Part shown: positions 3,858 through 31,548 of the stretch, one piece after another
How the letters are laid out: the number at the start of each line of letters is the position of its first letter
Numbering within the stretch: the first letter of the stretch is position 1
Assembly: GCA_017535945.1 (NCBI GenBank)
Contig: JAFXTJ010000009.1
Coordinates: 1-32,340 of the forward strand
DNA: 32,340 nt
Origin: Lachnospiraceae bacterium
Lineage (GTDB): Bacteria; Bacillota; Clostridia; Lachnospirales; Lachnospiraceae
Direction of reading: 5' to 3'
Translations under genes and position numbers: made by a program
The notes under the pieces: model-generated
Database searches by the model: none
What the model was told of the DNA's origin: nothing
What the model saw: only the letters and a program-made list of their open reading frames with translations

Positions 3858-3965
3858 CAATCCGATCCGCGATGCACGTACTTTTTGCAAAATCGCAAAT
3901 ATTTTTTAGCGTTTTATCGCATACCACAAGATATTGTACAAACAGGAACAGATATCACAAGATGG
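3852..3965 (-). promoter_or_regulatory. Three direct repeats ATAYCACAA upstream of the surface-protein gene
   Basis: ATACCACAA occurs at 3852-3860 and 3921-3929, and ATATCACAA at 3952-3960, all in the same direction. The last two are 31 bp apart, about three helical turns. They extend to ATACC-ACAA-GATAT and ATATC-ACAA-GATGG. The first copy overlaps the candidate -10 element. The arrangement suggests operator copies for a regulator of the surface protein. This is an inference from position and repetition. Confidence 0.45.
3921..3934. repeat. Palindrome ATAHC-N4-GDTAT, upstream copy
   Basis: The sequence is ATACC-ACAA-GATAT. It fits the half-site pattern of the dispersed 14-bp palindrome found mainly at 24-28 kb, but the centre (ACAA) differs from the common GCYT/ARGC. 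It lies in the non-coding gap before the surface-protein gene and is also part of the ATAYCACAA repeats, so membership in the family is less certain than for the other copies. Confidence 0.45.
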
Positions 3966-8970: not shown

Positions 8971-9017
8971 ATTAAGCGGTGCTTTCAGATACAGTTTTCA
9001 TCCGGACAGGTTTTGAC

Positions 9018-11960: not shown

Positions 11961-13630
11961 GAGAAGAGCCTTCGATAAGCGCCGGGATTGTCAAACCACA
12001 GCGCGTGCATTCCGAGAGACAACGGTGCCGCAAAATCCTTGGCCGGATTATCGCCGATATAGACCATCCGTCCGGCAGGCAGACGCATCCTGCGCTGCAT
12101 CAGCGTAAAGGAAAGCGGATCCGGCTTGCGGAAGAGCAGCGGATCGCCGGTACTGCCCGCCAGTTCATCCGTGATAAGGATCTCAGCGAAATCCTCCCCG
12201 ATCCCGAGGGCCCGGATCTTGGCATGCTGGCCTCCCGGCCTCCCGTCCGTGATGAGTCCGGTTTCCACGCCCGGCATCTGTTTCAGCCGATCCAGTACCT
12301 CCCGCGCCTCGGGATACAGCCTGATATCGGGCTCCTGCTCCCGGTAGATCGTCAGGAGCCGCTGCTTCAGCTCCGGATCCGGAGCGCCGGATGCGTCGGT
12401 CAGACCATATCCGGAGAGCACCCGGTCAATGGCGGGCTCCCCCGTGAGAAAAGCCTTCCACAGCGCCTCAGCCGTCTCCCGCGGATCCCTCTCCCCGAGC
12501 AGTCCGCTCTCTGCGATCTTCCGATACCCGCTCTTCACATAATCCGTCTCCGGATAAAGGGTATCGTCCATATCAAAGATAACGCCTGATATTTTATTTT
12601 CCTTTATATAGGGGATCGCTTCCTCCAGAGAAGCGATCCGCACAGGCTCCCTGCCGGTACAGACGCTCTGGTCAAACCTGCAGTAGACGCCCGCGGTATC
12701 CAGAAGCGGCGTCTGTTCCCCGGTATATGCTTCTCCCGCAAGGATCCTGAGCAGTGCCTCCGCCTCATCCGCGCCGGCCAGGCCGCTTAAGGGGGCGCCG
12801 CCGCCGAAACGGGGATTGATCTCGATAAAATAGTCGCGGTCCTGCGTATCCGTTGCAAGCCGCCCGCGGATCAGCTGTACCGTGATCGGCCCGATCGCAT
12901 GAAATCCGGACAGCAGCTGTCTGCATTCCTCCCGGATCTGCTCATCCGGTGTCATCCGGGTCTTGATGACCTCGCCGCTGCGCATCGCGAGGCGTCTTCT
13001 GGGCGTGATGAGGACCGGTCTGCCGTCAAAGTCGCAGAGGATATCGACGGTATACTCCTCTCCGGTCACATAGGGCTGGATAATGGCATCTTTGATGCGC
13101 TCCGCCATGGCCGTCAGCGACGCGGCATCCTCGATCCGATAAGCGTCGATCGAAGAACTGCCGTCCAGCGGCTTGATGAAGCAGGGAAAGCCCTGATCGT
13201 AACGCGCCGGATCATCGACCGGAACGGGTGTGGCAAGACCTGCGGAGGCGAAAAACGCCGCTGTCTTCCTCTTATCCCGGCAGATCCGCACGGAGTCCGG
13301 CGGACACACGATGACCCTCGTCCCCGCAACAAGAAATGCTCCGCTGTGTTCCGACAGCAGGAGCAGGTCCGTGTCGATCGTGGGGATCAGCGCATCGATC
13401 CGCTCTTCCTCACAGAAGCGCAGGAGCGAAGGGATATAATCGGGATCGGAGATCCGGCAGACCGGGAGATATCTGTCACAATATGCGAGAGCCGGCGCAG
13501 TGTCCGACATGTCCGCGCCGCAGATCACAAACGGCTGCTCCAGACGTTCCGCCGCCGCGCGGAACGCCTGCATCAGTTCCACGCGCCTGCCGACGCTCGT
13601 GAACAGAACGCGCAGCGGCTTACGCTTCAT
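11957..13630 (-). CDS. ATP-grasp ligase fused to HAD hydrolase
   Basis: The 557-residue cytoplasmic protein has an ATP-grasp half (about 1-330). This half shows a CarB/PylC-like pre-ATP-grasp fold (VLFTSVGRRVELMQAF), FIKPLDGSSS for nucleotide binding, and FIEINPRFGGG with metal ligands Glu270 and Asn272. The C-terminal half (about 348-557) is a HAD phosphatase-like domain with motif I DMDDT at 353-357, motif II LITDG, motif III lysine in FRKPD and motif IV YIGDNPAKD. ATP-grasp enzymes join a carboxylate to an amine or thiol through an acyl phosphate. In this glycan operon the product may be an aminoacyl or amide substituent on a sugar nucleotide, with HAD removing a phosphate, but the substrate is unknown. 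The ATG at 13630 overlaps the upstream stop by 11 bp. The HAD motif I coding region contains one copy of the 14-bp palindrome. Confidence 0.85.
   Translation of the reverse strand: MKRKPLRVLFTSVGRRVELMQAFRAAAERLEQPFVICGADMSDTAPALAYCDRYLPVCRISDPDYIPSLLRFCEEERIDALIPTIDTDLLLLSEHSGAFLVAGTRVIVCPPDSVRICRDKRKTAAFFASAGLATPVPVDDPARYDQGFPCFIKPLDGSSSIDAYRIEDAASLTAMAERIKDAIIQPYVTGEEYTVDILCDFDGRPVLITPRRRLAMRSGEVIKTRMTPDEQIREECRQLLSGFHAIGPITVQLIRGRLATDTQDRDYFIEINPRFGGGAPLSGLAGADEAEALLRILAGEAYTGEQTPLLDTAGVYCRFDQSVCTGREPVRIASLEEAIPYIKENKISGVIFDMDDTLYPETDYVKSGYRKIAESGLLGERDPRETAEALWKAFLTGEPAIDRVLSGYGLTDASGAPDPELKQRLLTIYREQEPDIRLYPEAREVLDRLKQMPGVETGLITDGRPGGQHAKIRALGIGEDFAEILITDELAGSTGDPLLFRKPDPLSFTLMQRRMRLPAGRMVYIGDNPAKDFAAPLSLGMHALWFDNPGAYRRLFS
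12579..12592. repeat. Palindrome ATAAC-GCCT-GATAT
   Basis: Copy of the dispersed 14-bp near-palindrome, inside the ATP-grasp/HAD gene. On the coding strand it supplies Ile347-Ser-Gly-Val-Ile just before HAD motif I, with ATA, TCA and GTT codons in a gene that otherwise prefers G/C-ending codons. An AT-rich run (TTTTATTTT) follows on the plus strand. Confidence 0.7.
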
Positions 13631-15548
13631 CGATCCGCTCCGCCGCATGCCGCAGCGCCTCCGTCCGGCTCGATACATCCGGGCTGCCCTCGCCGCCTTC
13701 TTCCGGGTGATACGTTGTGACGATCTGTTTCACAAGATCCCGGATATAGGCGCTCTCATGTTTGGATTCCTGGTTCAGTTCCTCGAGCTGTTTGAAGAAC
13801 CGGACCTCGTCGATCGGAATGGGCCGGCCGATATGGATCAGCCGGTTTGCCGTATCCTGCAGTCCTTCCTCGTCCATGAGCATCTCTTCATATAGTTTTT
13901 CACCGGGTCTGAGTCCCGTGAACTCGATCCGGATGTCCTCCCCCACGCGCAGGCCGGACAGTTTGATCAGATTCTCCGCCAGATCCAGGATCCGCACGGG
14001 TTCCCCCATATCCAGAACGAAGATCTCGCCGCCCCTTGCATAGGCACCCGCCTGCAGGACGAGGGACACCGCCTCGGGGATCGTCATGAAGTAGCGGATG
14101 ATATTGGGATCCGTCACGGTCACTGGGCCGCCCTCCGCGATCTGTTTCTTGAAGAGCGGGATAACGCTGCCGTTGGAGCCCAGGACATTGCCGAAGCGCA
14201 CCGCCACAAATTCCGTGTCATAATGCTTGTTAAAGGTCTGCACGATCATCTCGCAGATGCGCTTGCTGGCTCCCATGATATTCGTCGGGTTCACCGCCTT
14301 GTCGGTGGAGATCAGGACAAATTTCTTCGCGCCGTTCTGCGCCGCGGCGAGCGCGGTCTTCCAGGTACCGAACACATTATTCTTGATCGCCTCATTGGGA
14401 GACTCCTCCATCAGCGGCACATGCTTGTGCGCGGCGGCATGATAGACGATGTCCGGCTTCCAGCGCGAGAATACGGCATTGACTCTGGCCGTGTTGCGCA
14501 CGGAGCCGATGAGCACGATGAGCTCCAGCTCCGGATACTTGCGCTCCAGCTCCTGTTGGATCTCATACGCATTGTTCTCATAGATATCAAATACGATGAG
14601 ACGTTTCGGGTCGTGCGCCGCGATCTGCCGACAGAGCTCGCTGCCGATGGAACCGCCGCCTCCCGTGACCAGCACCGTTTTACCGCGAACATAGCCGATG
14701 ATGGAATCGATATCCACCGTCACGGGCTCCCGTCCCAGCAGATCCTCGATCTCCACATCCCTGAGTTTGGAGACACTGACCTCGCCGTTCACCAGCTGAT
14801 ACACGCCGGGCAGCGACTGCAGACGGCAGTTCGTTTCCTTGCAGATGTCCAGGATCCGGCTGATCATGGGACGGGGCGCCGACGGGATCGCCAGAATGAT
14901 CTCGTCGATATGATAGAGGTCCGCAGACTCGATGATCTTGTCCCTCCCGCCCACGACACGGACTCCCTGGATGTACCGTCCCCATTTGGTGGGATCGTCA
15001 TCGATGATGCAGCGCACCACCCGCGTGGAATAATTCCCCGTCTGGATGTCCTTGATGAGGATATTTCCGGACTCGCCCGCCCCGATGATCATGACGGAGA
15101 TGGAATTGTTCCGGTTGTCATTCCGGTGCTTCTTGCTGCGGATAAAACGGTAGGCAAAGCGGCTGATAAAGGTCAGCGAGATCAGGAGAAAGGTGTAAAG
15201 GAAATAATAGCTCTGCGGCACACTGACCAGATCCACACGGAAGAACTGCAGGCCGATGCCGTTGATGACACCGTCCAGGACACATGCGACGACCAGATTC
15301 TGCAGCTCGTTCTCCCCGGCATAGGCCCACAGCGAACTGTAAAGACGGAAGATGTAAAACAGCGCGATCGTCAGGATGATGAGAATTGGCATGAAGTCGC
15401 TGATCGGCTTCATGTAGATCTCCGGCACACTGCTGATACGGAATTCAAAACGCACGAGAATGGCCAGGAAACTCGCGACGAGCACGGCGAACACGTCATA
15501 GACCATGAGCACGGCCTGCCGGCCCAGTTTGGTCCAGTTGATGAACAT
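13620..15548 (-). CDS. Membrane-bound UDP-sugar 4,6-dehydratase (PglF/CapD/WbpM family)
   Basis: The 642-residue protein has an N-terminal membrane domain of about four helices (12-135), a CoA-binding-like Rossmann domain (about 150-260) and a C-terminal extended SDR domain (about 285-590). NAD binding is shown by TGGGGSIG at 295-302. The active site has STDK at 414-417 and Met425-x3-Lys429, where methionine replaces the usual tyrosine, as in WbpM and PglF. Such enzymes convert UDP-GlcNAc to a 4-keto-6-deoxy sugar, the entry to bacillosamine, QuiNAc or FucNAc. I chose the ATG at 15548, with AGGA 7 bases upstream. An ATG at 15581 would overlap the previous stop (ATGA) and is a real alternative adding 11 residues. 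The product is the likely first sugar for the phosphoglycosyl transferase. Confidence 0.93.
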   Translation of the reverse strand: MFINWTKLGRQAVLMVYDVFAVLVASFLAILVRFEFRISSVPEIYMKPISDFMPILIILTIALFYIFRLYSSLWAYAGENELQNLVVACVLDGVINGIGLQFFRVDLVSVPQSYYFLYTFLLISLTFISRFAYRFIRSKKHRNDNRNNSISVMIIGAGESGNILIKDIQTGNYSTRVVRCIIDDDPTKWGRYIQGVRVVGGRDKIIESADLYHIDEIILAIPSAPRPMISRILDICKETNCRLQSLPGVYQLVNGEVSVSKLRDVEIEDLLGREPVTVDIDSIIGYVRGKTVLVTGGGGSIGSELCRQIAAHDPKRLIVFDIYENNAYEIQQELERKYPELELIVLIGSVRNTARVNAVFSRWKPDIVYHAAAHKHVPLMEESPNEAIKNNVFGTWKTALAAAQNGAKKFVLISTDKAVNPTNIMGASKRICEMIVQTFNKHYDTEFVAVRFGNVLGSNGSVIPLFKKQIAEGGPVTVTDPNIIRYFMTIPEAVSLVLQAGAYARGGEIFVLDMGEPVRILDLAENLIKLSGLRVGEDIRIEFTGLRPGEKLYEEMLMDEEGLQDTANRLIHIGRPIPIDEVRFFKQLEELNQESKHESAYIRDLVKQIVTTYHPEEGGEGSPDVSSRTEALRHAAERIDEA

Positions 15549-15577
15549 GCCCTCTTCCTTTTTGCCTCTTCCTGTTC

Positions 15578-17971
15578 TCATGCCTTCTTCACTCCCGCCG
15601 TTCCCCCGAAGCACAGGGGGATCCAGGCCGTCACCATGGCGATCGTCATCATATTGCCCAGATGGAACACCCACTCGGTGAGCCCCGCCACAGCGAATCC
15701 CGCCGTCAGTGCCACCGGGACATAACAGATCCCGTCCGATCCCGTATCCTGCTCCGCCCGCCTGCCATACAGGCTGCCGGCGATCATCGCCGCCACGAGC
15801 AGGAGGCCGAACACCGCTCCCGTGATCAGCCCGTGATCGTGGGAAATCTGGAGGGCGGTATTATGTGCATGGGTCGTGATCTCCCCGTCCGGCAGCGGCA
15901 CGCCCATCTCCTCATGCCCTGTGAGGTTCAGATACGGCAGATAACTGCGCCAGATCGTAAAGCGGCCGTTGGCAAGCTTCTCCGTGGTGCTCTCCTGTCC
16001 GGCTTCCTCTCCGGCATCTTCAACAGTCCCCTGCGATCCGCCGGCAGCCTCCTGCCCGGCAGAGGCAGTGGCCTGTCCCGCCCCGGTGATCCGCGGATAA
16101 ACGGGATTTCCCGCGGCGTCATAGTTGTAACGATCCTCGGGATGATCATAGTTCGCTCCCTCGATCGCGAACATCTTCTCCCGGAAGACCATATAAAACC
16201 GCTCGATGCTGATGAGAAAGCTGCTGTCCCAGTTCACCGCTCCGCGGAGATTGGGATCGATGTCCTCGATCTCCATGAAGACCGGATGTCCCGCGATGAC
16301 CGGGAGCATCCGCTGCATCGTAAAGGCCGCGGGAAAACATACGATCAGAGAGCAGACCGTCACTGCCAGGCCTGCCGCAAACCCGCAGGTCTCTCTCTTC
16401 CGCTTCCTGCCCATTCCCCGGATCCCCATCACGGCAAGCAGCAGCGGTACGGATACCGCAACCGCCAGGATCCCGGTTCTGGACAGCGTGAAGAGCACAT
16501 AGGAAGCGATCAGGCCAAAGAGGAGCGCCTCCCTGCGCACTGCCACAACGAGCCGCAGGATCCCCGTGCCGCGGGGCTGCCTGCATACGGCGGCAAACAG
16601 CAGGGCAAATGAGACCGATGCCATCATCGTCAGATATTCCGCCGTCACCGTTACCGTATGGAAGATGAACGGGAACCGCGCACTGACAAACGCCACAAAA
16701 TATCGCCTCATGAGGCAGTAACCCATGCTCACCGCAAAATGCAGGATGAGTCCCTCCGTGAGGAGGGGCAGGAAACGCTCCCGCCGCTTCGAGAAATAAT
16801 AACACAGCACTCCTTCGGCGAAGAGCCCCGCGAGTGCCGCCCCCCACAGTCTCGTATTCCGGAAGACGATCAGCAGCACGAAGAACACCAGCGCCAGGAT
16901 CCCGAAGAACGACGGCCGGGCTCCGCCCCGTTTCTTTCCCTTCCCTCCACCGATCAGAAAGAGGAGGAAGAAAGCGGACAGATATCCGGCTTCCCATCTC
17001 GCCGCGATCAGATGCTCCGCGTCATAAAGTCCGTTCATATAGCGGCAGGCTGCGCCGATCGCGAGAGCAAAGAGGACCGTCTGCGCAGCCTCGCACAGTC
17101 TGACCGGAAGAGAAACGGCTTCCTTCTCCCGCCCGCCTGCCGCCGGCGCCTCCGTAAAAAAGAACAACGCTCCCAGAAGCCCTGCGATGATGAGCCCCGC
17201 GAGATAAAATACATTATCCGTCACGCGATGATCGAAACGCCCCGCGAGGACGAGGACCGCCAGCACGGTCAGACCGGCGTAGAATACCGGCGCCAGGATC
17301 CGGCTGCAGGCCCCGGCGACCGTCACCACTTTATCCCGCTCTCTTCCGAGCCGTCGCGCGATGACATATACGGTCCGCTCCAGCAGAAGCGTCACGGCTG
17401 CGATCGCCGCGATGAGCGCCAGGATCCCCCGCGGTCCGAGAGGCCTTTTGTAGTCCAGTTTCATATCCAGGCGCCATTCCGGTGTCTCGGTATCCACCTG
17501 GTAGAATTTCGTGAAGTAGGGGGACGCGCCTTTCGCCGGGATATTCTGCAGGCCGAAACGGTAACCGGAATACACGCCCGTGAAGAAGAGCCGGTACTCC
17601 CTGCCGATCTCCAGATCCAGCCCAAGCGGGATCCTCACCCGTCCGGGCAGATCCTCCTCTCCCAGGTCCGCGTATTTGTGAAAGATCTCCACCATGCGAT
17701 CATCGAACACGGACAGATCCACATAACGTCCGGAGACAAAGTCCTGCGTATATACCTCGACGGCTTCCAGCCGCTCGTGCTGGGCAATAAAGTCCTGAAT
17801 GAGATCGTGCGCGTCATCGATCTGCGCGGAGACCTCCATCCGGACACCGCCGCCCTCCTCCGAGACCGGCACCTGCCAGAGCCGGAAAGGCCATACGGTG
17901 AGGATGAGCAGCACCCCCGCGATCACGACGGCTGCACGCAGCGCGTCGGAAAACCATACCGCTCTACGCAT
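15578..17971 (-). CDS. O-antigen ligase/polymerase-like membrane protein (WaaL/Wzy type)
   Basis: The 797-residue polytopic membrane protein has about twelve or more hydrophobic segments. After helix 1 comes an extracytoplasmic domain (about 40-180), then further membrane segments. A large extracytoplasmic loop (about 555-725) contains a low-complexity Gly/Ala/Gln/Glu stretch (about 625-660) and, near residue 700, THAHNTALQ. The HxHN pattern is typical of O-antigen ligases and polymerases. It should transfer a lipid-linked glycan to an acceptor, or polymerise repeat units, on the outer face of the membrane. It is about twice the length of a standard ligase because of the extra N-terminal domain. 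The ATG overlaps the upstream TAG by 8 bp. Whether it ligates or polymerises cannot be told from sequence. Confidence 0.8.
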   Translation of the reverse strand: MRRAVWFSDALRAAVVIAGVLLILTVWPFRLWQVPVSEEGGGVRMEVSAQIDDAHDLIQDFIAQHERLEAVEVYTQDFVSGRYVDLSVFDDRMVEIFHKYADLGEEDLPGRVRIPLGLDLEIGREYRLFFTGVYSGYRFGLQNIPAKGASPYFTKFYQVDTETPEWRLDMKLDYKRPLGPRGILALIAAIAAVTLLLERTVYVIARRLGRERDKVVTVAGACSRILAPVFYAGLTVLAVLVLAGRFDHRVTDNVFYLAGLIIAGLLGALFFFTEAPAAGGREKEAVSLPVRLCEAAQTVLFALAIGAACRYMNGLYDAEHLIAARWEAGYLSAFFLLFLIGGGKGKKRGGARPSFFGILALVFFVLLIVFRNTRLWGAALAGLFAEGVLCYYFSKRRERFLPLLTEGLILHFAVSMGYCLMRRYFVAFVSARFPFIFHTVTVTAEYLTMMASVSFALLFAAVCRQPRGTGILRLVVAVRREALLFGLIASYVLFTLSRTGILAVAVSVPLLLAVMGIRGMGRKRKRETCGFAAGLAVTVCSLIVCFPAAFTMQRMLPVIAGHPVFMEIEDIDPNLRGAVNWDSSFLISIERFYMVFREKMFAIEGANYDHPEDRYNYDAAGNPVYPRITGAGQATASAGQEAAGGSQGTVEDAGEEAGQESTTEKLANGRFTIWRSYLPYLNLTGHEEMGVPLPDGEITTHAHNTALQISHDHGLITGAVFGLLLVAAMIAGSLYGRRAEQDTGSDGICYVPVALTAGFAVAGLTEWVFHLGNMMTIAMVTAWIPLCFGGTAGVKKA

Positions 17972-18905: not shown

Positions 18906-18908
18906 TTC

Positions 18909-19439
18909 CTATAATTTCCTTTCCATCATGAACATATCCCGGATCTCTCCGTCTGTGGACCGGACATCCGCAAGTTTTTCCACCACCGTGAATCCGGCCC
19001 GCTCATAGCTGCGGATCGCCGGTGTGTTATCGCAATAAACACGCAGGATCACGGTCTTCAGTCCCAGCTGCTCCCGCGCCGCCCGGCAGGCCAGCCGGGC
19101 TGTTTCCGTGCCGATGCCGTGACCGACCGCGTCATCCTCCCCGATGAAGATCCCGTACTCGGCGGTCTCCCGTTCCGAGTCGATATCCCGGAAATAAACA
19201 CTGCCCACGGGCCTTGTCCCGTTCTCCTCCCTGCGGCAGATGATCCACTGCACCACGTCACCGGCGCCCTCGATATGCTCCCGGATCCATCGCTGATGGA
19301 GTTCCTCCGTAAAGGTCTCCCGGAAAACAAAACAGGCACGGACTCTCGGGTTGTTGCGCCAGCGCACGACGAGCGGGGTATCCTCTTCCGTCATCGGCCT
19401 TAAGACGATCTGCTCCCCCTCGACACAGTGGATATTCAA
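18909..19439 (-). CDS. GNAT N-acetyltransferase, probably for a 4-amino-sugar nucleotide
   Basis: This 176-residue cytoplasmic acetyltransferase has the N-terminal pattern LRPMTEEDTPLVVRWRNNPRVR seen in amino-sugar acetyltransferases such as PseH and FdtC. Acetyl-CoA binding follows as GHGIGTETARLACRAA (about residues 103-118), then the GNAT motif LRVYCDNTPAIRSYERAGF. I chose the TTG at 19439. It overlaps the previous stop (TTGA), lies 5 bases after GGGAGGTGG, and starts just before the domain. Longer frames upstream lie inside the neighbouring gene. With the WecE-type transaminase in the same operon, the likely reaction is acetylation of dTDP-Fuc4N or a similar sugar, the role WecD has in E. 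coli. The substrate is inferred. Confidence 0.85.
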   Translation of the reverse strand: MNIHCVEGEQIVLRPMTEEDTPLVVRWRNNPRVRACFVFRETFTEELHQRWIREHIEGAGDVVQWIICRREENGTRPVGSVYFRDIDSERETAEYGIFIGEDDAVGHGIGTETARLACRAAREQLGLKTVILRVYCDNTPAIRSYERAGFTVVEKLADVRSTDGEIRDMFMMERKL

Positions 19440-21271
19440 GAACCCACCTCCCGGACCGACAGGATCCGCATGGTCCTGCCGCCGGCCGTCACCGAATCCT
19501 CCTCCGTCAGCGTCACGCGGATCCCGCGCGCCGCATAGTACTCCGTAAGCCAGGAGGCATCCCTCTCCGCATCCGTGACAAAACACACGTCCTCCGAAAG
19601 CAATGCCTCCGCCAGTGTATCATAGCCGAAAGAGGAGAGCTGATCCTGCCAGACGGGACTCTTCGCCGCCCAGCCCCCGGCCAGCAACAGATTATCCGGG
19701 CGGCCTTTCCGCTTGTCTCCCGAAAAGAGCGGTCTCGTCTCCGCTACGGAACTGTAGACGTCAAACACGTACAGACTGTCCTTATGCGTCCTGCAATATG
19801 CGCGCAGCGCCAGATAGGGTTCATTGGCCTCCTGCCGGCGGCTCTGATCCTGCCGGATCAGACGCACCGTTCCGGCGCCGTACAGACCGCCCACAACCAG
19901 AAAGACAGCGAACACCGTCACGGTGACCGCCAGTTTGGCTCTCACGGGGTTCTGTCCCTTCTCTTCCTCATTGACCACTTCTTTCCTGTCGCTCAGCAGA
20001 CGCATCAGGATCATGCCGGTGAGCACAGCGGTCTCCGCAAAATACAGCGGATGCGTGATCCGGACCGGATCCCTGCCGCCGGTGATGATATAGAGCCACA
20101 GGGCACTGCGGCAGAGGAACAGCAGCACCGGCTGCCAGAGCGCACGAAGCAGACGCTGCCCCATGCTCACGGACCGCGGAATGCTCAGAAGCGCAAGGGC
20201 GATCACCCCCATATACAGGACAGCCGCCATGATGTTCCAGGGAGCGTCCGTCTGCGGCCAGGTGTAGTCTGCCGGAAATCCCGTATGATGCAGGCGGTAG
20301 AAATACGCCCCTGTCGCCTGTAGGAGCCTGCTGCCCGCAGGAGCCGCCTGCTTCGCCGCGTAGGAAGCGATCTGTTCCATGGCCTGCGCATCGATCCTGT
20401 CTTCCAGACCGAAATTGTAATTCTCAAGGAGCATGACCGAGCCGGCATCCAGACCCGCCGACCCGTAAAACGCCTCATTCCCCTCATAGGACGGGACTCC
20501 TGTGTAATCATACACCTGTGTCCTGGCGTTGAAGAACCGCACAAAATCATCCCATTCCTGCGCGGCGTACCCGATCCTGTCCACACTCCAGCAGGCGCTG
20601 AGGACAAGGACGAGACTCACCAGCGTGATCCCGAACCGGCGGTAATGATCCGTCACAAAGGGATAACGGATCAGTTCCCATATACCGGGCAGTTCCTCAT
20701 TCTCCGCCCGGGAAGCGCGGACCTCGCCGGCGTACCGGAACAACAGTGCGCACAGGATGAGCGGGAGCAGGAGCAGAAGCATCTCGGAACGGATCACATA
20801 GCCGATGCCGCAGAGGATGACACCCGCGGCAAAATGCCGTCTCTTCTGTCCCGTCATGAAGAAAAACGCTGCCGCGGCGGCAAGAAATCCCACCGTAACG
20901 CTGTATTGCACAAAGAAGAAATGCGGGAGCGACAGAAAATACAGGATCCCCCACATGAGCAGGACGACCAGCATCCCGATCCTCTTTCCCCGGACAGCTC
21001 CCGCCGCAAACCGTTCGCTGTCGCGGACCAGAGATACCGCCCTGAGCAGGATGAGGATCGCACATACGGTCTGCAGACCGAACAGGATGATCCCGAAATG
21101 CGGAACGCCGGGGATCAGCCGGTAAAGAAAAGCCACAAATGTTCCGAACGGATACAGGTTCTGGATATCCCTCGCTTCGGGCGTGCCGGAACAGACCCCC
21201 GACAGCAGATCGCGGATCAGCGCGTCATCATTGAGATCCAGATAAAAGATCGGTGTACTCTCAGCCGGCAT
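19436..21271 (-). CDS. Polytopic membrane protein, GT-C-like, with C-terminal soluble domain
   Basis: The 611-residue protein has about ten to eleven hydrophobic segments (from about residue 40 to 465) and a C-terminal soluble region (about 470-611). An acidic cluster near the start (DLNDDALIRD, residues 11-21) resembles the first-loop acidic motif of GT-C transferases, which use polyprenyl-phosphate sugars outside the membrane. The usual first membrane helix before that motif is absent here. The N-terminus may therefore be shortened, or the protein may belong to a different membrane family. The ATG overlaps the transaminase gene end by 11 bp, with AGGGA upstream. The C-terminus overlaps the GNAT start by 4 bp. 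Its role as glycosyltransferase is an inference from fold-like features and operon context. Confidence 0.6.
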   Translation of the reverse strand: MPAESTPIFYLDLNDDALIRDLLSGVCSGTPEARDIQNLYPFGTFVAFLYRLIPGVPHFGIILFGLQTVCAILILLRAVSLVRDSERFAAGAVRGKRIGMLVVLLMWGILYFLSLPHFFFVQYSVTVGFLAAAAAFFFMTGQKRRHFAAGVILCGIGYVIRSEMLLLLLPLILCALLFRYAGEVRASRAENEELPGIWELIRYPFVTDHYRRFGITLVSLVLVLSACWSVDRIGYAAQEWDDFVRFFNARTQVYDYTGVPSYEGNEAFYGSAGLDAGSVMLLENYNFGLEDRIDAQAMEQIASYAAKQAAPAGSRLLQATGAYFYRLHHTGFPADYTWPQTDAPWNIMAAVLYMGVIALALLSIPRSVSMGQRLLRALWQPVLLFLCRSALWLYIITGGRDPVRITHPLYFAETAVLTGMILMRLLSDRKEVVNEEEKGQNPVRAKLAVTVTVFAVFLVVGGLYGAGTVRLIRQDQSRRQEANEPYLALRAYCRTHKDSLYVFDVYSSVAETRPLFSGDKRKGRPDNLLLAGGWAAKSPVWQDQLSSFGYDTLAEALLSEDVCFVTDAERDASWLTEYYAARGIRVTLTEEDSVTAGGRTMRILSVREVGS

Positions 21272-22397: not shown

Positions 22398-22399
22398 CG

Positions 22400-22888
22400 T
22401 TACGCCTCCTTTTTCTCAAGCGTCATCTTCCGGGAGATGAAATTGTAGCACATGACGATCGCTGTCGACACCAGCACCCAGAAGGTCTCCTCCGCACCGG
22501 CCTGACTCATGTTAAACAATGCGCCCCACCAGCCAATGACGCCGGTAAGCCACGGCCAGTTCGGGCTGATGATGCCCATCCCGAGGTAGAGGATGGCCTC
22601 CGCGAGGAGAAGTCCGATCACCGAGAGCACCACAAAGATGATGAACTCCCTGCGGCGGCTCATATCATCCTTGCGGGTAAAGACAAATTTCATGGACAGC
22701 AGATAGTTGCATACCATGGACACGATGACACTCACCAGCTTGGACAGCAGATAATACTGGGCAAAAACACTGTCAAAGCCGATCGACCGGAACAGGATAT
22801 TGAGCGCCGTATAGATGCCGAAATCGATGAAGAAGCAGACGATCCCCACTACCCCGAAACGCGCGATCTGTCCAAGCAGTTTATTCAC
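22400..22888 (-). CDS. GtrA-like four-helix membrane protein
   Basis: This 162-residue protein has four membrane helices (about residues 6-30, 46-68, 78-105 and 131-152) and the GtrA signature at its start (QIARFGVVGIVCFFIDFGIY). GtrA proteins are thought to move or assist undecaprenyl-phosphate sugars across the membrane for modification of surface glycans. I chose the GTG at 22888 because GAGGT lies 8 bases upstream. A GTG at 22921 would add 11 residues but has no clear ribosome site. The chosen start overlaps the upstream stop by 8 bp. A GtrB-like GT2 is encoded at 17964-18905. The stop is 2 bp before the transaminase ATG and within its ribosome site region. Confidence 0.88.
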   Translation of the reverse strand: MNKLLGQIARFGVVGIVCFFIDFGIYTALNILFRSIGFDSVFAQYYLLSKLVSVIVSMVCNYLLSMKFVFTRKDDMSRRREFIIFVVLSVIGLLLAEAILYLGMGIISPNWPWLTGVIGWWGALFNMSQAGAEETFWVLVSTAIVMCYNFISRKMTLEKKEA

Positions 22889-24803
22889 AGCCGTATACCT
22901 CGTAAAAAAGTCCGTTGTCACCCTGAACCATAAACAATTTATTATAGCCCGTTTCGTTCAGATAGTCCAGTACCAGGTCTGTCTTGGCAGGACTTCCGAA
23001 ATCGTAGACTGGATCCGCGGATGCATCGCCCCTCAGGATCACGAGCGGGCGCTCCTCCTCCGCCGCCAGAGCGGTCAGCGATGCCTCCACTCTTTCATAC
23101 GCATTGCTGTCCAGATCCGGCCAGGCCGTATAAAGGGCCGGCCGCAGACCGAGCAGCACATGCAGTCCGGGCGCATCGCCGCAGATGACGGCCCGGCGGC
23201 CGGCAGCGGAGACGGCTTCCGAGAGTTCCCCCGTGACGGCATCATACAGGCTCTCAAGCATACGGGCATTTGCCGCGGTGGTGTGCATCCCCGCCGCTGC
23301 CGGGATCCGGACGATCACGGTATCCCGCGGGGTCCCGTCCGTACCGTCGCCAAACGCGAAATTCAGGTGGAACAGTGCACCCTGCAGCGATAAAAGGAGA
23401 CACAGGGCACCGGCAAAGGACAGGAACGGCATGCGGAAGCCGTTCTTCCACAGGGAGCGCACCCCGACATCCCCCGCGTAAGGATCGGAGAGCGCCCGCG
23501 CCGCCTCCGCGAGCAGGAGGAGCAGCCCCGGCAGGAGCAGAAACAGATCGTTCACGACCGGAAAGGTATAATTGTTGGAGCCGAGCGGCAGAAAGAGGAT
23601 CGTCACAAGAAACAGAAGCGACGCGCTGCGAAGTGACCGGGAGACCCTCATAAGACCCGTGACGGCAGCCGTGCACAGGAGGATCAGGAGGATCACCGCC
23701 ATCATCGCGAGCTCAAACATACAGTCATAGTATTGATAATTCCGGGTGAAGACGCCCGTCGCGAGATACCAGCGGAACAGGAGTGCCAGCAGGATCGCGT
23801 ATAACAGGATCATGAGCCTCCTGTGCCTGCCCGTGTGCGCGGCATACAGAAAGAGGCCGAAGCCCGTCGCGAGAACAGGGAGAGCAAGCAGCAGTTCTTT
23901 GCAGGTTGTCCCGTAGGCCGCCAGGACCGATACGAGCATCCCGCCCGCCGAATAATCCCGCGCGGAACCCGTCATGGAAAACAGCGAACCGATCATCCGG
24001 AAATAGGCGGACGGCCCCTCGCTGAGCGATATGATAACAAGCGGTATGATAACGCCTGTTATGTATCCAGCGAGGCACACACCTGTCGCCGCGAGCAACC
24101 GCCTCATCACCGTCTGTCCCTTCGTCCCGCCTGCCGGCGTACCGGCGCTTTCTTCCCGGCACAGCAGGATCTCATGAAACCATACCGGCAGGATGAGCAG
24201 TGCCTGCAGAAGATTGGGGAAGCGTACAAACACGGCAAGTCCCAGCACCAGTCCTGCCAGCAGATAATATCGTCTCTTCACACGCTCACTCTGTTCCCCG
24301 GCGAACGCCGTAAATGCCCGCAGGAGGAAAAATGACGCCAGTGTCAGAAACAGGACACTGAGTGTATTGTACAGGATCGCAGCGGGACACCAGCAGAGGC
24401 TCTCCGCTGTCCAGACCGCGAGAAACCGGAAGAGCGGAGCTGCCGCGGATCGTTTCCCGTCCGGACGCAGGGCATCCCAGGGGGCAGTCCATGCAAGAAG
24501 CGCGATGGCCGCGATAAAACAGGCACAGTAAATGTTCATTCCCCTGAGCGTCCCTCCTCCGGGGAACCTCACCAGCACGGCACCGGTCAGATTGGAGAGC
24601 CAGGTGGAGTAGAACCACATGGGATCCATGGCCTGCGGCCAGGTGAAATTCGTCAGGGAATAGGTGGTATCCGCCACATCCACTCCCCGGCAAACACCCG
24701 CGAAAGGCCACAGGATAAGAATAAGCGGGAAGAGGATCCGCCCGGCCTGCGTCAGGAGCGCCCTCTTCCCGTTCAACCATGTTTTAATATCGATCGTTAT
24801 CAT
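22881..24803 (-). CDS. Polytopic membrane protein, GT-C-like glycosyltransferase candidate
   Basis: The 640-residue protein has one N-terminal helix (about 22-38), an extracytoplasmic loop with acidic residues (Asp42, Asp45) in GVDVADTTYSL, about ten further helices up to 480, and a C-terminal soluble domain (about 500-640). The pattern resembles GT-C transferases, but I do not recognise a named family. The ATG at 24803 lies 11 bp after the acyltransferase stop in a short AT-rich stretch without a visible ribosome site, unlike nearly all other genes of the operon. That stretch holds two adjacent copies of the 14-bp palindrome. A second pair lies inside the gene at 24034-24062. Confidence 0.6.
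   Translation of the reverse strand: MITIDIKTWLNGKRALLTQAGRILFPLILILWPFAGVCRGVDVADTTYSLTNFTWPQAMDPMWFYSTWLSNLTGAVLVRFPGGGTLRGMNIYCACFIAAIALLAWTAPWDALRPDGKRSAAAPLFRFLAVWTAESLCWCPAAILYNTLSVLFLTLASFFLLRAFTAFAGEQSERVKRRYYLLAGLVLGLAVFVRFPNLLQALLILPVWFHEILLCREESAGTPAGGTKGQTVMRRLLAATGVCLAGYITGVIIPLVIISLSEGPSAYFRMIGSLFSMTGSARDYSAGGMLVSVLAAYGTTCKELLLALPVLATGFGLFLYAAHTGRHRRLMILLYAILLALLFRWYLATGVFTRNYQYYDCMFELAMMAVILLILLCTAAVTGLMRVSRSLRSASLLFLVTILFLPLGSNNYTFPVVNDLFLLLPGLLLLLAEAARALSDPYAGDVGVRSLWKNGFRMPFLSFAGALCLLLSLQGALFHLNFAFGDGTDGTPRDTVIVRIPAAAGMHTTAANARMLESLYDAVTGELSEAVSAAGRRAVICGDAPGLHVLLGLRPALYTAWPDLDSNAYERVEASLTALAAEEERPLVILRGDASADPVYDFGSPAKTDLVLDYLNETGYNKLFMVQGDNGLFYEVYGCE
24034..24062. repeat. 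Palindrome doublet, two 14-bp copies with 1-bp gap
   Basis: ATAAC-AAGC-GGTAT (24034-24047) and ATAAC-GCCT-GTTAT (24049-24062) lie in inverse orientation, 15 bp start to start. Both are inside the GT-C-like gene, in the codon phase Ile-x-x-Val-Ile, using ATA, ACA, CTT and GTT codons. The geometry is identical to the doublet at 24787-24815. Confidence 0.75.
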
Positions 24804-24815
24804 ATCGCTTGATAT
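24787..24815. repeat. Palindrome doublet at gene junction
   Basis: ATATC-GATC-GTTAT (24787-24800) and ATATC-GCTT-GATAT (24802-24815) are separated by one base, 15 bp start to start. They span the start codon of the GT-C-like gene (24803) and the stop of the acyltransferase gene (24815), so part of this doublet is non-coding. Confidence 0.75.
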
Positions 24816-26026
24816 TATATCTTGTTTTCCTCATCTTCCTTTTTCTCCGTCCAGCCTTCCTTCAGACGGTTTTTATGGATGGAGGCATCCAGTTGTTTCA
24901 GGCGCCGGATCGGCGGCGTGTCCTTCGTCACCCGGATAAGCCAGGCAAAGAGCGTGGCCCGGATGAAGTCCACCATACAGCCTGCCAGAAATACTATGAT
25001 AACGCTTGTTATCATATGTAGGATCAACATCAGCGGCTGCTGCTTCGGAACCGGACCGATAAAGTCTTCCAGCCAGAAAAGCCACCGGTCCCGGATCTCA
25101 TGATGCTCGTGGAGGAGATAAACTCCAAAGGTGAAGGGAGCGAGGAACCGCGCAGCGCGGGCAAGCCATCCCTCCCTGATGCGGATGTGCCTGAAAACGG
25201 TAAATAACCCCAGCGCCGCGCCGAGCGTGGGCAGATAGTTATAATGGAACGGTGTGCCGTACCAGCTGCCGAGGTGTCCGGTCGTCAGGTTCATCGCATG
25301 GACGGCCAGCGTGACGAGGAGGATCACGGCCGACGAAACGAGATAGAGGATGGCCCCTTTCCGGGCACGGTTCAGGAAGCTGACCTCATACTTGCGGATA
25401 TACGCCGCAATGAGATAGAGACACAGGAACCATCCGAACCCGTAGCCGTAATCATCGATGGGAAAAGCGACCGGTACCACGCTCTTGATCACGGAGAACC
25501 ACAGCAGCAGGCCGATGATCGTATACTTCAGCTGTTTTCTGCTCAGTCCCAGCACACCCTTGTTCAGGATCGGAGCAAAAAGATACATGAACACATAGGC
25601 CGTCGCAAACCAGTAGTGCTCCGAGGAGATCGGAAAGCAGTACTCCTGCAGCAGGCCGTAAGCGCCCTGATACGTGCCGGAGGAGCTGCCCGCCGCAAAC
25701 ATAACGCCTGTTATTAAAACGGTATAGAACAATACCTCCAGGATCACCCGCAGCAGGCGCCGCAGGGATACGCCGGTCTGAGACAGAAAATAGCCGCTGA
25801 TGAGCACCCAGATATTGACCGATGCGATACACAGCGATTCCAGTATGGCTCCCGTGACCGTGTCGGGTGTGAGCGCCTCTCCCATCACCGGGAGCAGCCC
25901 GCCGTGGGCCAGATAATGCAGGGCGATGACCATTCCCATGGCGATCACCCTGAGGAGCTCGAAATTTGCTTCTCTCCTGGTACGGTATCCCTCGTCTCCC
26001 CTTAGGATCTCCGAATTCGCCATCAT
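24815..26026 (-). CDS. Membrane acyltransferase, family 3 (OafA/WecH-like)
   Basis: The 403-residue integral membrane protein has about ten hydrophobic helices. Its N-terminus (ANFELLRVIAMGMVIALHYLAHGG) holds the family R-X10-H motif, Arg26 to His37. These enzymes move an acyl group, usually acetyl, from acyl-CoA across the membrane to a sugar hydroxyl, so here O-acetylation of the operon's glycan is likely. The ATG at 26026 overlaps the ABC transporter stop (ATGA). A second ATG at 26023 is equally well placed behind GAGAGGAG. Two copies of the 14-bp palindrome lie inside the gene. The C-terminal tail is highly charged and ends in an AT-rich stretch. Confidence 0.88.
   Translation of the reverse strand: MMANSEILRGDEGYRTRREANFELLRVIAMGMVIALHYLAHGGLLPVMGEALTPDTVTGAILESLCIASVNIWVLISGYFLSQTGVSLRRLLRVILEVLFYTVLITGVMFAAGSSSGTYQGAYGLLQEYCFPISSEHYWFATAYVFMYLFAPILNKGVLGLSRKQLKYTIIGLLLWFSVIKSVVPVAFPIDDYGYGFGWFLCLYLIAAYIRKYEVSFLNRARKGAILYLVSSAVILLVTLAVHAMNLTTGHLGSWYGTPFHYNYLPTLGAALGLFTVFRHIRIREGWLARAARFLAPFTFGVYLLHEHHEIRDRWLFWLEDFIGPVPKQQPLMLILHMITSVIIVFLAGCMVDFIRATLFAWLIRVTKDTPPIRRLKQLDASIHKNRLKEGWTEKKEDEENKI
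24999..25012. repeat. Palindrome ATAAC-GCTT-GTTAT with extended arms
   Basis: The best palindrome of the family. The arms extend to 8 bp (ATGATAAC at 24996-25003 and GTTATCAT at 25008-25015). It is inside the acyltransferase gene, coding Ile339-Thr-Ser-Val-Ile with ATA, ACA and GTT. Confidence 0.75.
25701..25714. repeat. Palindrome ATAAC-GCCT-GTTAT
   Basis: Identical over 14 bp to the copy at 24049-24062. It is inside the acyltransferase gene, coding Ile105-Thr-Gly-Val-Met with ATA, ACA and GTT codons. The surrounding few bases are unusually AT-rich. Confidence 0.75.
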
Positions 26027-27780
26027 ACTCCTCTCTCCGGCAGCGCCCGCTGCCCGTCGATACGGTAGACCATATCACATTTCTCTATGGTCTGCAGCCT
26101 GTGGGCGATGATGATGAGCGTCTTTCTGCCGTGCAGGCGGTTGATGCTCTCCATGATGGCCGCTTCCGTCTCCCCGTCCAGCGCGCTCGTGGCTTCATCC
26201 AGCACCAGAACCTCGGGATCCTCAAAGATCGCCCGTGCGATGCCGATGCGCTGTCTCTGTCCGCCGGAGAGACGGATGCCACGCTCGCCGATCGTCGTAT
26301 CCAGCCCGTCCGGCAGGCTCTTTACAAATTCATCCAGCTGTGCCTCCGCCAGTGCCCGCCAGACTCTCTCGTCGTCGATCTCATCATCCGGGATCCCGAA
26401 GGCCACGTTCTTGCGGATGGTCGTATCGATCATGAAGATGGTCTGCGGGATGTAGCCGATGTTCTTCAACCACCCGCGATAGTTGGAGAAGACATCCACC
26501 CCATCCGCCGTGACCGTACCGCCCTGTACCTGCAGCAGTCCCAGCATGATATCGACGATCGTGGTCTTGCCGGCGCCGGAGGCGCCGACGATACCGACTG
26601 CCTTGCCCACCGGGATGGTCATGGAAGCATGTTCGAGCACATTGGTCTCCGTACCCGGATAACGGTAGGTGATATCTGACAGCTCGATCTTATCCGTGAC
26701 GGGGAGCTTATCCACCGTCTCCCTCGCCCGGTAGCCGTTTTCGTCATAGGTCACGCGCACGTCGCGGATGTCCGTCTGCAGATTGTCGCTGACATTCATG
26801 AAAAAGGGCTCGAAATACGCGATGGAGGTCAGATAATTGTTGATGCGGTTGGCACTGGGAAGAAGCCTCGCAGCGGCGCCCGCGAGGACAGTCAGCTGCG
26901 GCAGCATCTGCGTGAAGGGCACGCCCGTGGAGAGGACGGCCAGCATGTAGCCGATCATGCCGGCGATCGCCACCGTCTCGATCAGGAGCCTGGGTGTTGA
27001 ATTGTAAAGCTGATACTTCTGCACCGCGTTCACATAGCCCTTGCCGCAGTCGGCGTAGCCGTTAATGAAGTATTTCTCCCGGGCAGCGATCTTGATGTCC
27101 TTGATCCCCGTCACCGACTCCTCGATCCACTTGTACAGACCGCTGTAATAATCCTGATTGTCCTTTCCGGCCCGCACCATGACCGGTTTGATGAAGTATT
27201 TGATGACGAGGAGCGTGACGATGAGCAGCAATGCGATCGTACAGGTCATGACAGGATCCGTAAAGAGCAGGATCCCCACCAGGCAGACAAAGACGATCAT
27301 CTCGCTCACAAGCTGCAGGATGCTCAGGATCAGCCCGTACATGTTGTTCACATCCGAAGTGATGCTGCGCTGGATCACCGTTGTGTCCGCCCCCAGATAG
27401 TACTCGTACTGTCTGGTCATGAAATTGATCATCATCCGGCGCGAAGTTTCGAACTGGTTCGTATAGACAAAACGCAGCTGCACCACATTGACCAGGAAGA
27501 GGAAGATATTCTTCAACACGAAGACGACGACGATGAGCACCATGAAGAATGCCGCAAAGGCTGTGGAACTCTGCATCCCCAGCCCGTTATAGAGCATGGC
27601 GAGCCACGGCTTCTCGACGATCTTGTCCGGATCCACCACGATCTGCATCACCGGGACGATGAGCCCGATCCCCAGAGATTCCAGGATACCGCCGATCAGC
27701 ATGAGCACGACGATGCCCGCCATCTGCCGCTTCTGCCTGCCGTCCAGCAGGACCGCCATTTTCTTTAAGATCTTACGCAT
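26023..27780 (-). CDS. ABC half-transporter, lipid-linked oligosaccharide flippase (PglK-like)
   Basis: The 585-residue protein has an N-terminal membrane domain with six helices (about 20-330) and a C-terminal ATPase (about 365-580). ATPase motifs are Walker A GASGAGKT at 399-406, signature LSGGQ at 504-508, Walker B VLVLDE at 524-529 and H-loop His560. The membrane domain and short inter-domain link resemble PglK, which flips undecaprenyl-diphosphate-linked glycans to the outer leaflet. As a homodimer it would do this for the product of this operon. No Wzx-type flippase is seen in the window. The ATG overlaps the upstream GT2 stop by 8 bp, and its own stop overlaps the acyltransferase start (ATGA). 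Confidence 0.87.
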   Translation of the reverse strand: MRKILKKMAVLLDGRQKRQMAGIVVLMLIGGILESLGIGLIVPVMQIVVDPDKIVEKPWLAMLYNGLGMQSSTAFAAFFMVLIVVVFVLKNIFLFLVNVVQLRFVYTNQFETSRRMMINFMTRQYEYYLGADTTVIQRSITSDVNNMYGLILSILQLVSEMIVFVCLVGILLFTDPVMTCTIALLLIVTLLVIKYFIKPVMVRAGKDNQDYYSGLYKWIEESVTGIKDIKIAAREKYFINGYADCGKGYVNAVQKYQLYNSTPRLLIETVAIAGMIGYMLAVLSTGVPFTQMLPQLTVLAGAAARLLPSANRINNYLTSIAYFEPFFMNVSDNLQTDIRDVRVTYDENGYRARETVDKLPVTDKIELSDITYRYPGTETNVLEHASMTIPVGKAVGIVGASGAGKTTIVDIMLGLLQVQGGTVTADGVDVFSNYRGWLKNIGYIPQTIFMIDTTIRKNVAFGIPDDEIDDERVWRALAEAQLDEFVKSLPDGLDTTIGERGIRLSGGQRQRIGIARAIFEDPEVLVLDEATSALDGETEAAIMESINRLHGRKTLIIIAHRLQTIEKCDMVYRIDGQRALPERGV

Positions 27781-28891
27781 GTGCCCGCATTCTCCGATAT
27801 TTCCATAACAAGCGATATTTTATATAGAACAGGAACTGCGATCTCATCTGCAGCTCCATGAAGCCCCGTTCCTCCGCATCGATCCGCTCCCTGTAATACG
27901 GATTCTCATAAAATCGCGGAAAAGCGTCCCGCATCTCCCGTGCCAGCCGCTTCGTGAAACGATAGACGGACTCCCGCCGCTCTCCCGGTCCCTCTCCCGT
28001 CCGATAGCCCGCCATGGCGGAAAACAGCGTATTGCGGTAAAAGAGGTTCGTAAAGAGGAATTCGATCTCCGGACGGTAGGCTTCCAGATAACCGCCCTGC
28101 TCCGCCTCCGCAAGCAGCAGCCGTCCCGCCTCCATCCGGTCATTCAGATTGCTCTCCGAAAGTGTATGCACCGTCGAGGTGCCGTGCTGGTAATAGAAAT
28201 ACAGCGGTTCGGGCAGATAGGCGAAATTCGTCGCCCGCAGCATCCAGGTCGCCGCCACCGCATTATCCTCGTAAAAGATCCCCTCCGGAAAGGTACCCGT
28301 CCCGTGGCGTCCCGCGGGGCAGGGGGCCAGCGTGTCCCCGAAGATGATCCGGCGCCGGTAGATCTTGACTACGAGGCTCCCGGAGTCCAACAATAACAAC
28401 TGATATTTATTTTTGTCCAGCATCCCCGCCTGTGCAGGATCATTATTCGGTACGCGTTCACCGGGTGTCATCGTGGGATGATCCACCAGCGAGTAATCGC
28501 AGCCCGCCATATCCGCGCCGGTGCGCTCCGCTTCGGCCAGGAGCCGCTCATAGTAATCGGGGCTTACCCAGTCATCGGCATCGATGAAACCGATCCATTC
28601 GCCCTGCGCTGCGGCGAGACCCAGATTCTTCGCCCCGCCCTGCTTCCGGTTCTCCGGTGAGGCGATCACCGTGAGCACTCCGCCGCTCCGCTTCTCGTAG
28701 TCCCTGAGCACCCGGAGGGAATCATCCGTGGACGCGTCATCCACCGCGAGGATCTCCGTTCGTCCCGGCTGCAGCTTCAGGATCGTCTGTGCCAGGAGGC
28801 TGTCCAGACAGCGGGCAAGTTTCCCCTCCCCCGCCATGTTGTACACGGGGACGATAATGCTGAGCAGTTTTGTCTGATGCGAAGGATCCAT
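27773..28891 (-). CDS. GT2 family glycosyltransferase
   Basis: The 372-residue cytoplasmic enzyme has a GT-A family 2 fold. It shows LLSIIVPVYN at 9-18, the nucleotide-binding AVDDASTDDS at 49-58, and DAD at 104-106 in GFIDADDW. The C-terminal half (about 220-372) is helical and charged, ending in basic residues that may touch the membrane. It should add one sugar to the lipid-linked glycan. I chose the ATG at 28891, 2 bp after the upstream TAG, since the family motif starts soon after. In-frame starts at 28912 and 28918 lie within the upstream gene and lack ribosome sites. The end overlaps the ABC transporter start by 8 bp. Two palindrome copies lie inside the gene. Confidence 0.9.
   Translation of the reverse strand: MDPSHQTKLLSIIVPVYNMAGEGKLARCLDSLLAQTILKLQPGRTEILAVDDASTDDSLRVLRDYEKRSGGVLTVIASPENRKQGGAKNLGLAAAQGEWIGFIDADDWVSPDYYERLLAEAERTGADMAGCDYSLVDHPTMTPGERVPNNDPAQAGMLDKNKYQLLLLDSGSLVVKIYRRRIIFGDTLAPCPAGRHGTGTFPEGIFYEDNAVAATWMLRATNFAYLPEPLYFYYQHGTSTVHTLSESNLNDRMEAGRLLLAEAEQGGYLEAYRPEIEFLFTNLFYRNTLFSAMAGYRTGEGPGERRESVYRFTKRLAREMRDAFPRFYENPYYRERIDAEERGFMELQMRSQFLFYIKYRLLWKYRRMRAHA
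27805..27818. repeat. Palindrome ATAAC-AAGC-GATAT
   Basis: Inside the 3' end of a GT2 gene, in a different codon phase from the copies near 25 kb. The coding strand uses TTG and TTA leucine codons here, rare in a gene that otherwise uses CTG or CTC. AT-rich sequence (TTTATATAG) follows on the plus strand. Confidence 0.7.
28393..28406. repeat. Palindrome ATAAC-AACT-GATAT
   Basis: Inside the same GT2 gene as the copy at 27805, in the same codon phase, again with TTG and TTA leucine codons. Both half-sites match. The central four bases (AACT) differ at two positions from the common AAGC. Confidence 0.6.
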
Positions 28892-28893
28892 CC

Positions 28894-31547: not shown

Positions 31548-31548
31548 C

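Follow-up and report, generated by a model that had tools for sequence, protein, structure and literature searches.

What does a short near-palindrome do for the DNA that carries it when it recurs throughout one operon? We asked this of a window of 32,340 nt, the whole stretch of DNA analyzed here, which belongs to contig JAFXTJ010000009.1 of a Lachnospiraceae genome (G000; GCA_017535945.1; 2.65 Mb in 144 contigs, 82% complete) and has a G+C content of 58.6%. A first-pass annotation, made from the sequence alone, had reported the motif ATAHC-N4-GDTAT in a glycan operon of this window and had listed a silencer, a nucleoid-organizing site, a chromosome-positioning site, and an operator as possible functions. 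From that list, a site that organizes a replicon or a region fits best, and a silencer or operator remains as a doubtful rival. Our analysis suggests that the motif is the putative binding site of a dimeric, sequence-specific, host-encoded protein and that it may label replicons or chromosomal stretches, not individual promoters. On the sequence evidence, we place this reading just short of an even chance.

The motif is present in clear excess over chance. The window contains 11 matches to ATAHC-N4-GDTAT, compared to a mean of 0.16 and a maximum of 1 in 100 dinucleotide shuffles. Across G000, this pattern occurs 84 times versus 5 times for the pattern read backwards, and a refined core, ATAWCRNNYGWTAT, occurs 61 times versus 0; in the relative G033 (a draft assembly like G000; ∼78% complete), the core occurs 47 times versus 0. 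Alignment of the stretches holding all 61 strict G000 copies revealed a full motif of ∼24 bp, W5-ATAWC-RNNY-GWTAT-W5, composed of a 14-bp core with about five A/T-rich bases on each side; flanks beyond 5 bp were near background. The 14-bp near-palindrome originally described is the core of this longer site, whose A/T-rich flanks are also selected, and the center given for it (GCYT or its complement ARGC) holds locally in the window but relaxes to R-N-N-Y genome-wide. We then scanned 543 kb of G000 stretches with a 24-bp weight matrix whose only training data came from G000, using the reversed sequence as a control that preserves composition but not all local structure. At scores of at least 16, we obtained 97 sites and 1 control match; at scores of at least 12, the control still yielded 3 matches. 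The window alone has 8 strict sites against 0.74 expected (Poisson P = 1.2e-6, calculated post hoc). Neighboring sites are often spaced 15 bp or ∼30 to 35 bp apart. Raw G000 counts include some doublets because the assembly contains near-duplicate contigs (C58 and C101, 83% identical; C3 and C116, ∼80% identical) and seems to mix related strains or species.

Can codon usage or protein conservation account for this excess? The first-pass annotation had stated beforehand that counts no higher than in codon-preserving shuffles would speak against the motif. When the codons of 441 genes were shuffled synonymously, the 54 sites observed in them fell to a mean of 2.6 (maximum of 5 in 40 shuffles). 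Genes in the retrieved stretches were called with a simple in-house script. The sites do use rare codons, as had been noted (ATA, 3.5% of Ile codons; GTT, 7.0% of Val codons; ACA, 10.1% of Thr codons). About half of the G000 sites lie inside genes, in three codon phases, and the motif occurs on both strands, in differing phases, and between genes, in agreement with the earlier view that protein conservation is no explanation. Chance and codon bias are both rejected as the source of the motif.

Comparison with G033 provided a second view of this constraint. Contig C109 of G000 and contig C12 of G033 are 74% identical, and counterparts were found for six of nine G033 sites and six of ten G000 sites. 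Among ten counterpart pairs, four from the window and six from the C12 sites, agreement was 78/80 in the arms, 69/100 in the flanks, and 11/20 at the R/Y positions, although the agreement of the arms is partly by construction, because both members of each pair had been selected as sites. Where a counterpart exists, then, the arms are kept and the surrounding letters change, which goes against the second refuting outcome named by the first-pass annotation (loss of the motif in close relatives while the encoded peptides stay the same). The carB gene of G000 C109 (locus L024, 11463-14789) carries three copies ∼30 bp apart within a ∼40-residue insertion between domains that is largely built of the motif. 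This insertion is present in both G000 and G033, where the peptide differs and the DNA motif does not, and it is missing from eight of the nine other CarB proteins aligned (taken from nine of the 80 loci), the ninth having a shorter insertion that is unrelated. Site letters in the homologous carB arrays are only 46 to 75% identical, yet they still score as sites. Across 80 carB loci from many phyla, the motif is no more frequent than the control (6 versus 7 in 1.01 Mb). These data show that, in housekeeping genes, selection on the DNA itself operates within protein-coding stretches, even within codons gained by insertion.

Where else does the motif occur? We turned to the chromids of Butyrivibrio, secondary replicons whose published account rests on plasmid-like rep and par genes (PMC6249431). 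The text describing B. proteoclasticus B316 (PMC2914790) lists BPc2 (302,358 bp), pCY360 (361,399 bp), and pCY186 (186,325 bp); our G084 is this genome, the first 20 kb of pCY360 being identical. Likewise, G065 C2 corresponds to pNP243 of B. fibrisolvens D1 over the two ends compared. All seven chromid stretches were enriched, with 9 to 39 matches at scores of at least 18 versus 0 to 6 in reversed sequence, although the matrix was not trained on them: BPc2 39/6, pNP243 32/5, G004 C3 23/0, G018 C12 17/1, G021 C14 13/3, G030 C14 10/0, and G023 C2 9/0 (observed/reversed). Local shuffles gave means of 0 to 3 at the same threshold. The last four were picked irrespective of the motif, because they carry P0001, the partition protein of the chromid. 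Sites become sparser with distance from the origin on BPc2 (P = 0.0003) and on G004 C3 (P = 0.01), and on the latter the GC skew and the direction of genes switch at the ParA/Rep locus. In contrast, 150 kb sampled from the B316 megaplasmids pCY360 and pCY186 gave 0 matrix matches versus 2 reversed. Strict copies in B316 (22 versus 11 reversed) were distributed as 9 on the chromid, 12 on the chromosome, 1 on pCY186, and 0 on pCY360. In G000 and G033, the motif populates stretches of chromosome. The motif on the main chromosome of a species was judged from strict counts only. A Roseburia sp. 831b plasmid (100 kb of 243 kb) gave 1 match versus 1 reversed at scores of at least 18. Sites are also present in G015, a complete genome without P0001, but they are not evidence, because its stretches were picked by strict matches.

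The copies in the window are as follows, each with the score of its 24-bp site.

3921..3934: weak or chance copy ATACCACAAGATAT; a loose-pattern match scoring only 12.8.
12579..12592: copy ATAACGCCTGATAT, inside a gene for a 573-aa ATP-grasp/HAD protein (11957-13678, minus strand); 24-bp site at 12574, score 26.6.
24034..24047: copy ATAACAAGCGGTAT, first of a pair spaced 15 bp, inside the gene for a 640-aa protein (22881-24803, minus strand); score 25.0; counterpart at 7051 of G033 C197.
24049..24062: copy ATAACGCCTGTTAT, second of that pair, same gene (22881-24803, minus strand); score 22.6; counterpart at 7066 of G033 C197.
24787..24800: copy ATATCGATCGTTAT, first of another pair spaced 15 bp, at the start of the 640-aa gene; score 29.7; no aligned G033 counterpart.
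24802..24815: copy ATATCGCTTGATAT, at the junction of the 640-aa gene and an acyltransferase gene; score 29.9; no aligned G033 counterpart.
24999..25012: copy ATAACGCTTGTTAT, inside the acyltransferase gene (24815-26026, minus strand); score 26.9; counterpart at 11300 of G033 C197.
25701..25714: copy ATAACGCCTGTTAT, inside the acyltransferase gene (24815-26026, minus strand); score 24.7; counterpart at 11999 of G033 C197.
27805..27818: copy ATAACAAGCGATAT, near the end of a GT2 glycosyltransferase gene (27773-28918, minus strand); score 29.1.
28393..28406: copy ATAACAACTGATAT, inside the same GT2 gene (27773-28918, minus strand); score 27.5.
31491..31504: copy ATAACACCTGGTAT, inside a second GT2 gene (30528-31592, minus strand); score 27.6.

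All ten positions first reported, including 3921 as a likely one, are exact matches to the loose pattern; the copy at 31491 had been overlooked. The copy at 3921 is doubtful because its score is close to the range in which the control still yields matches, while the other ten score 22.6 to 29.9, above the threshold of 16 at which the control gave 1 match in 543 kb. In the two stretches of the homologous G033 operon that could be aligned, four of six window sites are kept (24-mers 24029, 24044, 24994, and 25696) within flanking DNA that is 60 to 69% identical; the pair at the gene junction (24-mers 24782 and 24797) lacks a counterpart in that alignment.

Do the sites follow the function of the genes they occupy? 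The phrase "glycan operon" describes the window well but not the motif. Genes within or beside sites, named from Pfam, include addB, addA, valS, asnA, purL, carA/carB, queH, IMP cyclohydrolase, AICARFT, and dapA/dapB, and further greA, larC-like, polC, secE, rpsF, purD, pyrD, glycoside hydrolases, and the glycosyltransferases of the window; the names purE, pyrE, glyA, ftsZ, secA, and GDP-fucose synthase were assigned by eye. A glycan-specific regulator was ruled out, since the host genes are functionally unrelated. Out of 86 deduplicated sites (contigs C3 and C58 left out), 50 lie in genes, 36 are intergenic, and none falls between convergent genes.

The main rival to our reading is a broader regulator. 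The sites could be operators of a global transcription regulator or silencer, placed in and between genes to tune or block transcription over stretches of DNA in the manner of stoperators, KorB operators, or H-NS/Rok-type silencing. The palindrome has a half-site spacing like that of helix-turn-helix targets, arrays of two to four sites stand in several gaps before genes (purH, GH2, and larB regions), and the 36 intergenic sites compare with 6 expected from the share of intergenic DNA. Silencers, moreover, are known to bind inside genes. However, A/T-rich 24-mers fall in genes at the same frequency as the sites (50%) and give the same intergenic share, and therefore we see no preference for promoters beyond base composition. 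Most host genes have housekeeping roles, and the set changes from species to species; purL and carB of G065, at 3.58 to 3.59 Mb, have no strict copy there. A silencer of foreign DNA would be expected above all on the megaplasmids, yet the 150 kb sampled from them contain no site. We consider this explanation possible but unlikely.

Which protein might bind the motif? One candidate is chromosomal ParB. The parS site of chromosomal ParB/Spo0J is palindromic and centromere-like. In G000, parAB is accompanied by three canonical parS copies at intervals of 48 bp (contig C121; L140 5992-6103), with the same spacing in relatives, and canonical parS (TGTTTCACGTGAAACA-like) also stands beside parAB in G033; neither resembles the motif, and the examined stretches of the parAB contigs of both genomes have no motif copy at scores of at least 14. 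The presence of three canonical parS copies beside parAB makes chromosomal ParB an unlikely binder, as judged from sequence. We found one ParB_N protein each in G000 and G033 and therefore no Noc, a second ParB-like protein, although absence is not final in assemblies ∼82% and ∼78% complete.

The other candidate is P0001 itself, a ribbon-helix-helix-like partner of ParA (187 aa) and the candidate centromere-binding protein of the chromid, whose own partition sites the motif would then represent. The sites are scattered over chromids that carry P0001, several copies lie in the parA-rep intergenic region of G004 C3, and, by eye, their half-sites resemble the GTTATATAAC repeats of that region. 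Yet pNP243 is rich in the motif and has a ParB/Spo0J-family partition protein annotated beside ParA, and P0001 has no match in its genome, G065, so P0001 is unlikely to be the binder. Nor was P0001 matched in G000 or G033, where the excess is strongest though nothing close to the chromid ParA turned up (best match, 28% identity); these assemblies are ∼80% complete, so absence is not proof. We regard this explanation as improbable. By elimination, the remaining candidate is a host protein other than the chromid's own partition protein.

On this basis, we propose that each half of a dimer would read ATAWC plus its A/T-rich flank across the 4-bp RNNY gap and that the bound protein may act on the chromid and on some chromosomal regions by helping to organize, tether, or segregate them. 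That there is one such protein, that it is dimeric and chromosomally encoded, and what its binding does are what we infer from these patterns. The fourth base of the arms bears on the dimer. In G000, the 83 sites whose fourth base is A or T in each arm divide into 26 ATAAC..GTTAT, 54 mixed, and 3 ATATC..GATAT (24/48/3 without near-duplicate contigs), an excess of mixed sites by our own chi-square arithmetic; G033 (17/17/5) and the chromids (56/41/8) have no such excess. The variation of this base, first described as independent, is thus not quite independent in G000.

Several observations weigh against this proposal. No binding protein was found, and no convincing gene stands beside the clusters in all groups among 1,051 called genes. 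The bias toward the origin is not significant on pNP243 (P = 0.14), and A/T-rich origin DNA contributes some chance matches. The median distance from sites to the next start codon is 72 bp versus 120 bp for random intergenic positions, which could hint at regulation. Four of the ten G000 C109 sites and three of the nine G033 C12 sites have no counterpart in place, with two of the four falling in alignment gaps. Sampling of 159 further genera of the family showed no clear excess in most (near 1:1), strong enrichment in three (104/2, 112/9, and 27/0), and mild enrichment in a few. Finally, the densest G000 genes (valS, asnA, addB, purH, purL, carB, and queH) map to 3.55 to 3.73 Mb on the chromosome of G065 (4.67 Mb), a place that is ∼1 Mb away from its origin and neither ori nor ter, while G065 has its own cluster elsewhere, at 615 to 702 kb (19 versus 4 reversed at scores of at least 16 in 160 kb), besides its chromid. 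The dense regions differ between the two, and therefore the marked chromosomal regions are not conserved in position between species.

We had at first favored the window region being part of a chromid, because a MatE gene beside dense sites of G000 C5 is 67% identical to the MatE beside the chromid origin. This was dropped when a chimeric protein query placed the valS-queH genes on the closed chromosome, at 3.55 to 3.73 Mb; beyond MatE, moreover, the contig ends of G000 and G033 do not look like origins. Placement of the window contig is uncertain, because the family of its epsE-like piece, which maps at 4.24 Mb in G065, has paralogues. Outside the family, 24 genomes summed by our addition to 177 versus 202 reversed. 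Samples of G144, G171, and G238 (6, 20, and 10 kb) gave 0, 2, and 0 matches at scores of at least 14, leaving their strict counts unconfirmed by the matrix. Among viral contigs, one had an array of two sites in an apparent short tandem repeat at the end of the contig stretch and was dropped.

A functionless mobile or tandemly duplicating palindromic element, inserting in genes and gaps like Rickettsia palindromic elements, could explain why the carB copies lie within a lineage-specific insertion and why 15-bp tandem pairs and triplets preserve the reading frame, but it is very improbable given that no homology extends past ∼24 bp and that the arms stay while centers and flanks drift, so that even the diverged carB arrays score as sites, which selfish insertions would not maintain. 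An RNA hairpin or riboswitch was rejected: at the fourth position of the would-be stem, A-A or T-T mismatches occur in 54 of 97 sites, an Rfam search of the window returned 0 family matches, and sites occur on both strands and in differing phases, which favors a dimeric DNA-binding protein, as the first-pass annotation had supposed.

How does the motif compare with known systems? By analogy, it most likely works like SegB, Noc, or MatP sites, and its behavior appears closest to SegB sites, then Noc sites, then matS; the features tested place it outside the Noc, parS, and matS families. SegB sites of Sulfolobales, a 13-bp palindrome (TCTAGA-S-TCTAGA) present in a few dozen copies per chromosome, are reported to lie >80% in genes of diverse function, to cluster in one part of the chromosome, near segAB, to be missing from another, and to serve chromosome organization and segregation (PMC12284271). 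The motif shares with them a short dispersed palindrome, regional clustering, and placement in genes of diverse function. They differ in being archaeal, in sequence, and in having a known ribbon-helix-helix protein with the ParA-like SegA, whereas here sites step by 15 bp, a secondary replicon is marked, and the binder is putative. Noc sites (NBS) in Bacillus subtilis are described as ∼70 discrete palindromes around the chromosome, absent from the terminus region (PMC4331003). Discrete palindromes are found here too, with a bias toward the origin on two of the three chromids tested (BPc2 and G004 C3; not significant on pNP243), but Noc is a ParB paralogue, and the single ParB_N protein of G000 and of G033 is encoded beside canonical parS. 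For matS of MatP (GTGAC-RNY-GTCAC), the source describes a single Ter domain with 23 sites, at one per 35 kb (PMC6907758). The anatomy and the dispersed, domain-defining sites are similar; the arms and gap length differ from GTGACRNYGTCAC, and the sites here mark chromids and other regions, with chromid copies thinning away from the origin. Mycobacteriophage stoperators are likewise numerous across a genome, but they are asymmetric sites in a phage genome bound by a monomeric repressor (PMC9283540).

Our search of open-licence papers found nothing on this motif or on dispersed motifs in Butyrivibrio chromids. Tentatively, and with somewhat less assurance than for the binding site itself, we suggest an undescribed Lachnospiraceae system in which a host-encoded dimeric protein would recognize ATAWC-RNNY-GWTAT, distinguish the chromid, together with selected chromosomal regions, from the megaplasmids of that cell, and shape or segregate the DNA so marked, with selection strong enough to keep sites in core genes with rare codons and even in coding insertions. 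Chromids carry core genes. If the proposal is true, sites spread over the chromid yet absent from the megaplasmid stretches sampled in the same cell would offer a handle on how a secondary chromosome is distinguished and organized, and the named motif could serve as bait for fishing out the protein.

Chromid origins have further features. An HU protein of 94 aa adjoins the origin (L136 12438-12719 and homologues) and is 94 to 100% identical across the P0001-type chromids examined and 83% identical to that of pNP243. By eye, GTTATATAAC-type repeats 5' of the chromid parA (L080 7764-8600) are likely its own centromere, with half-sites resembling those of the motif, and numerous AAAAGGGAAT-type repeats that precede the Rep gene on each of the two chromids (L080 10100-10950 and L137 1350-2340) look like iterons. 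Within the window, three long genes of the glycan operon (28894-30531, 22881-24803, and 19436-21271, all minus strand) have no Pfam match. A gene at the end of the operon (8979-10220, plus strand) encodes a BTAD-domain protein, and its G033 relative (C28) has three motif copies ∼1 kb away.

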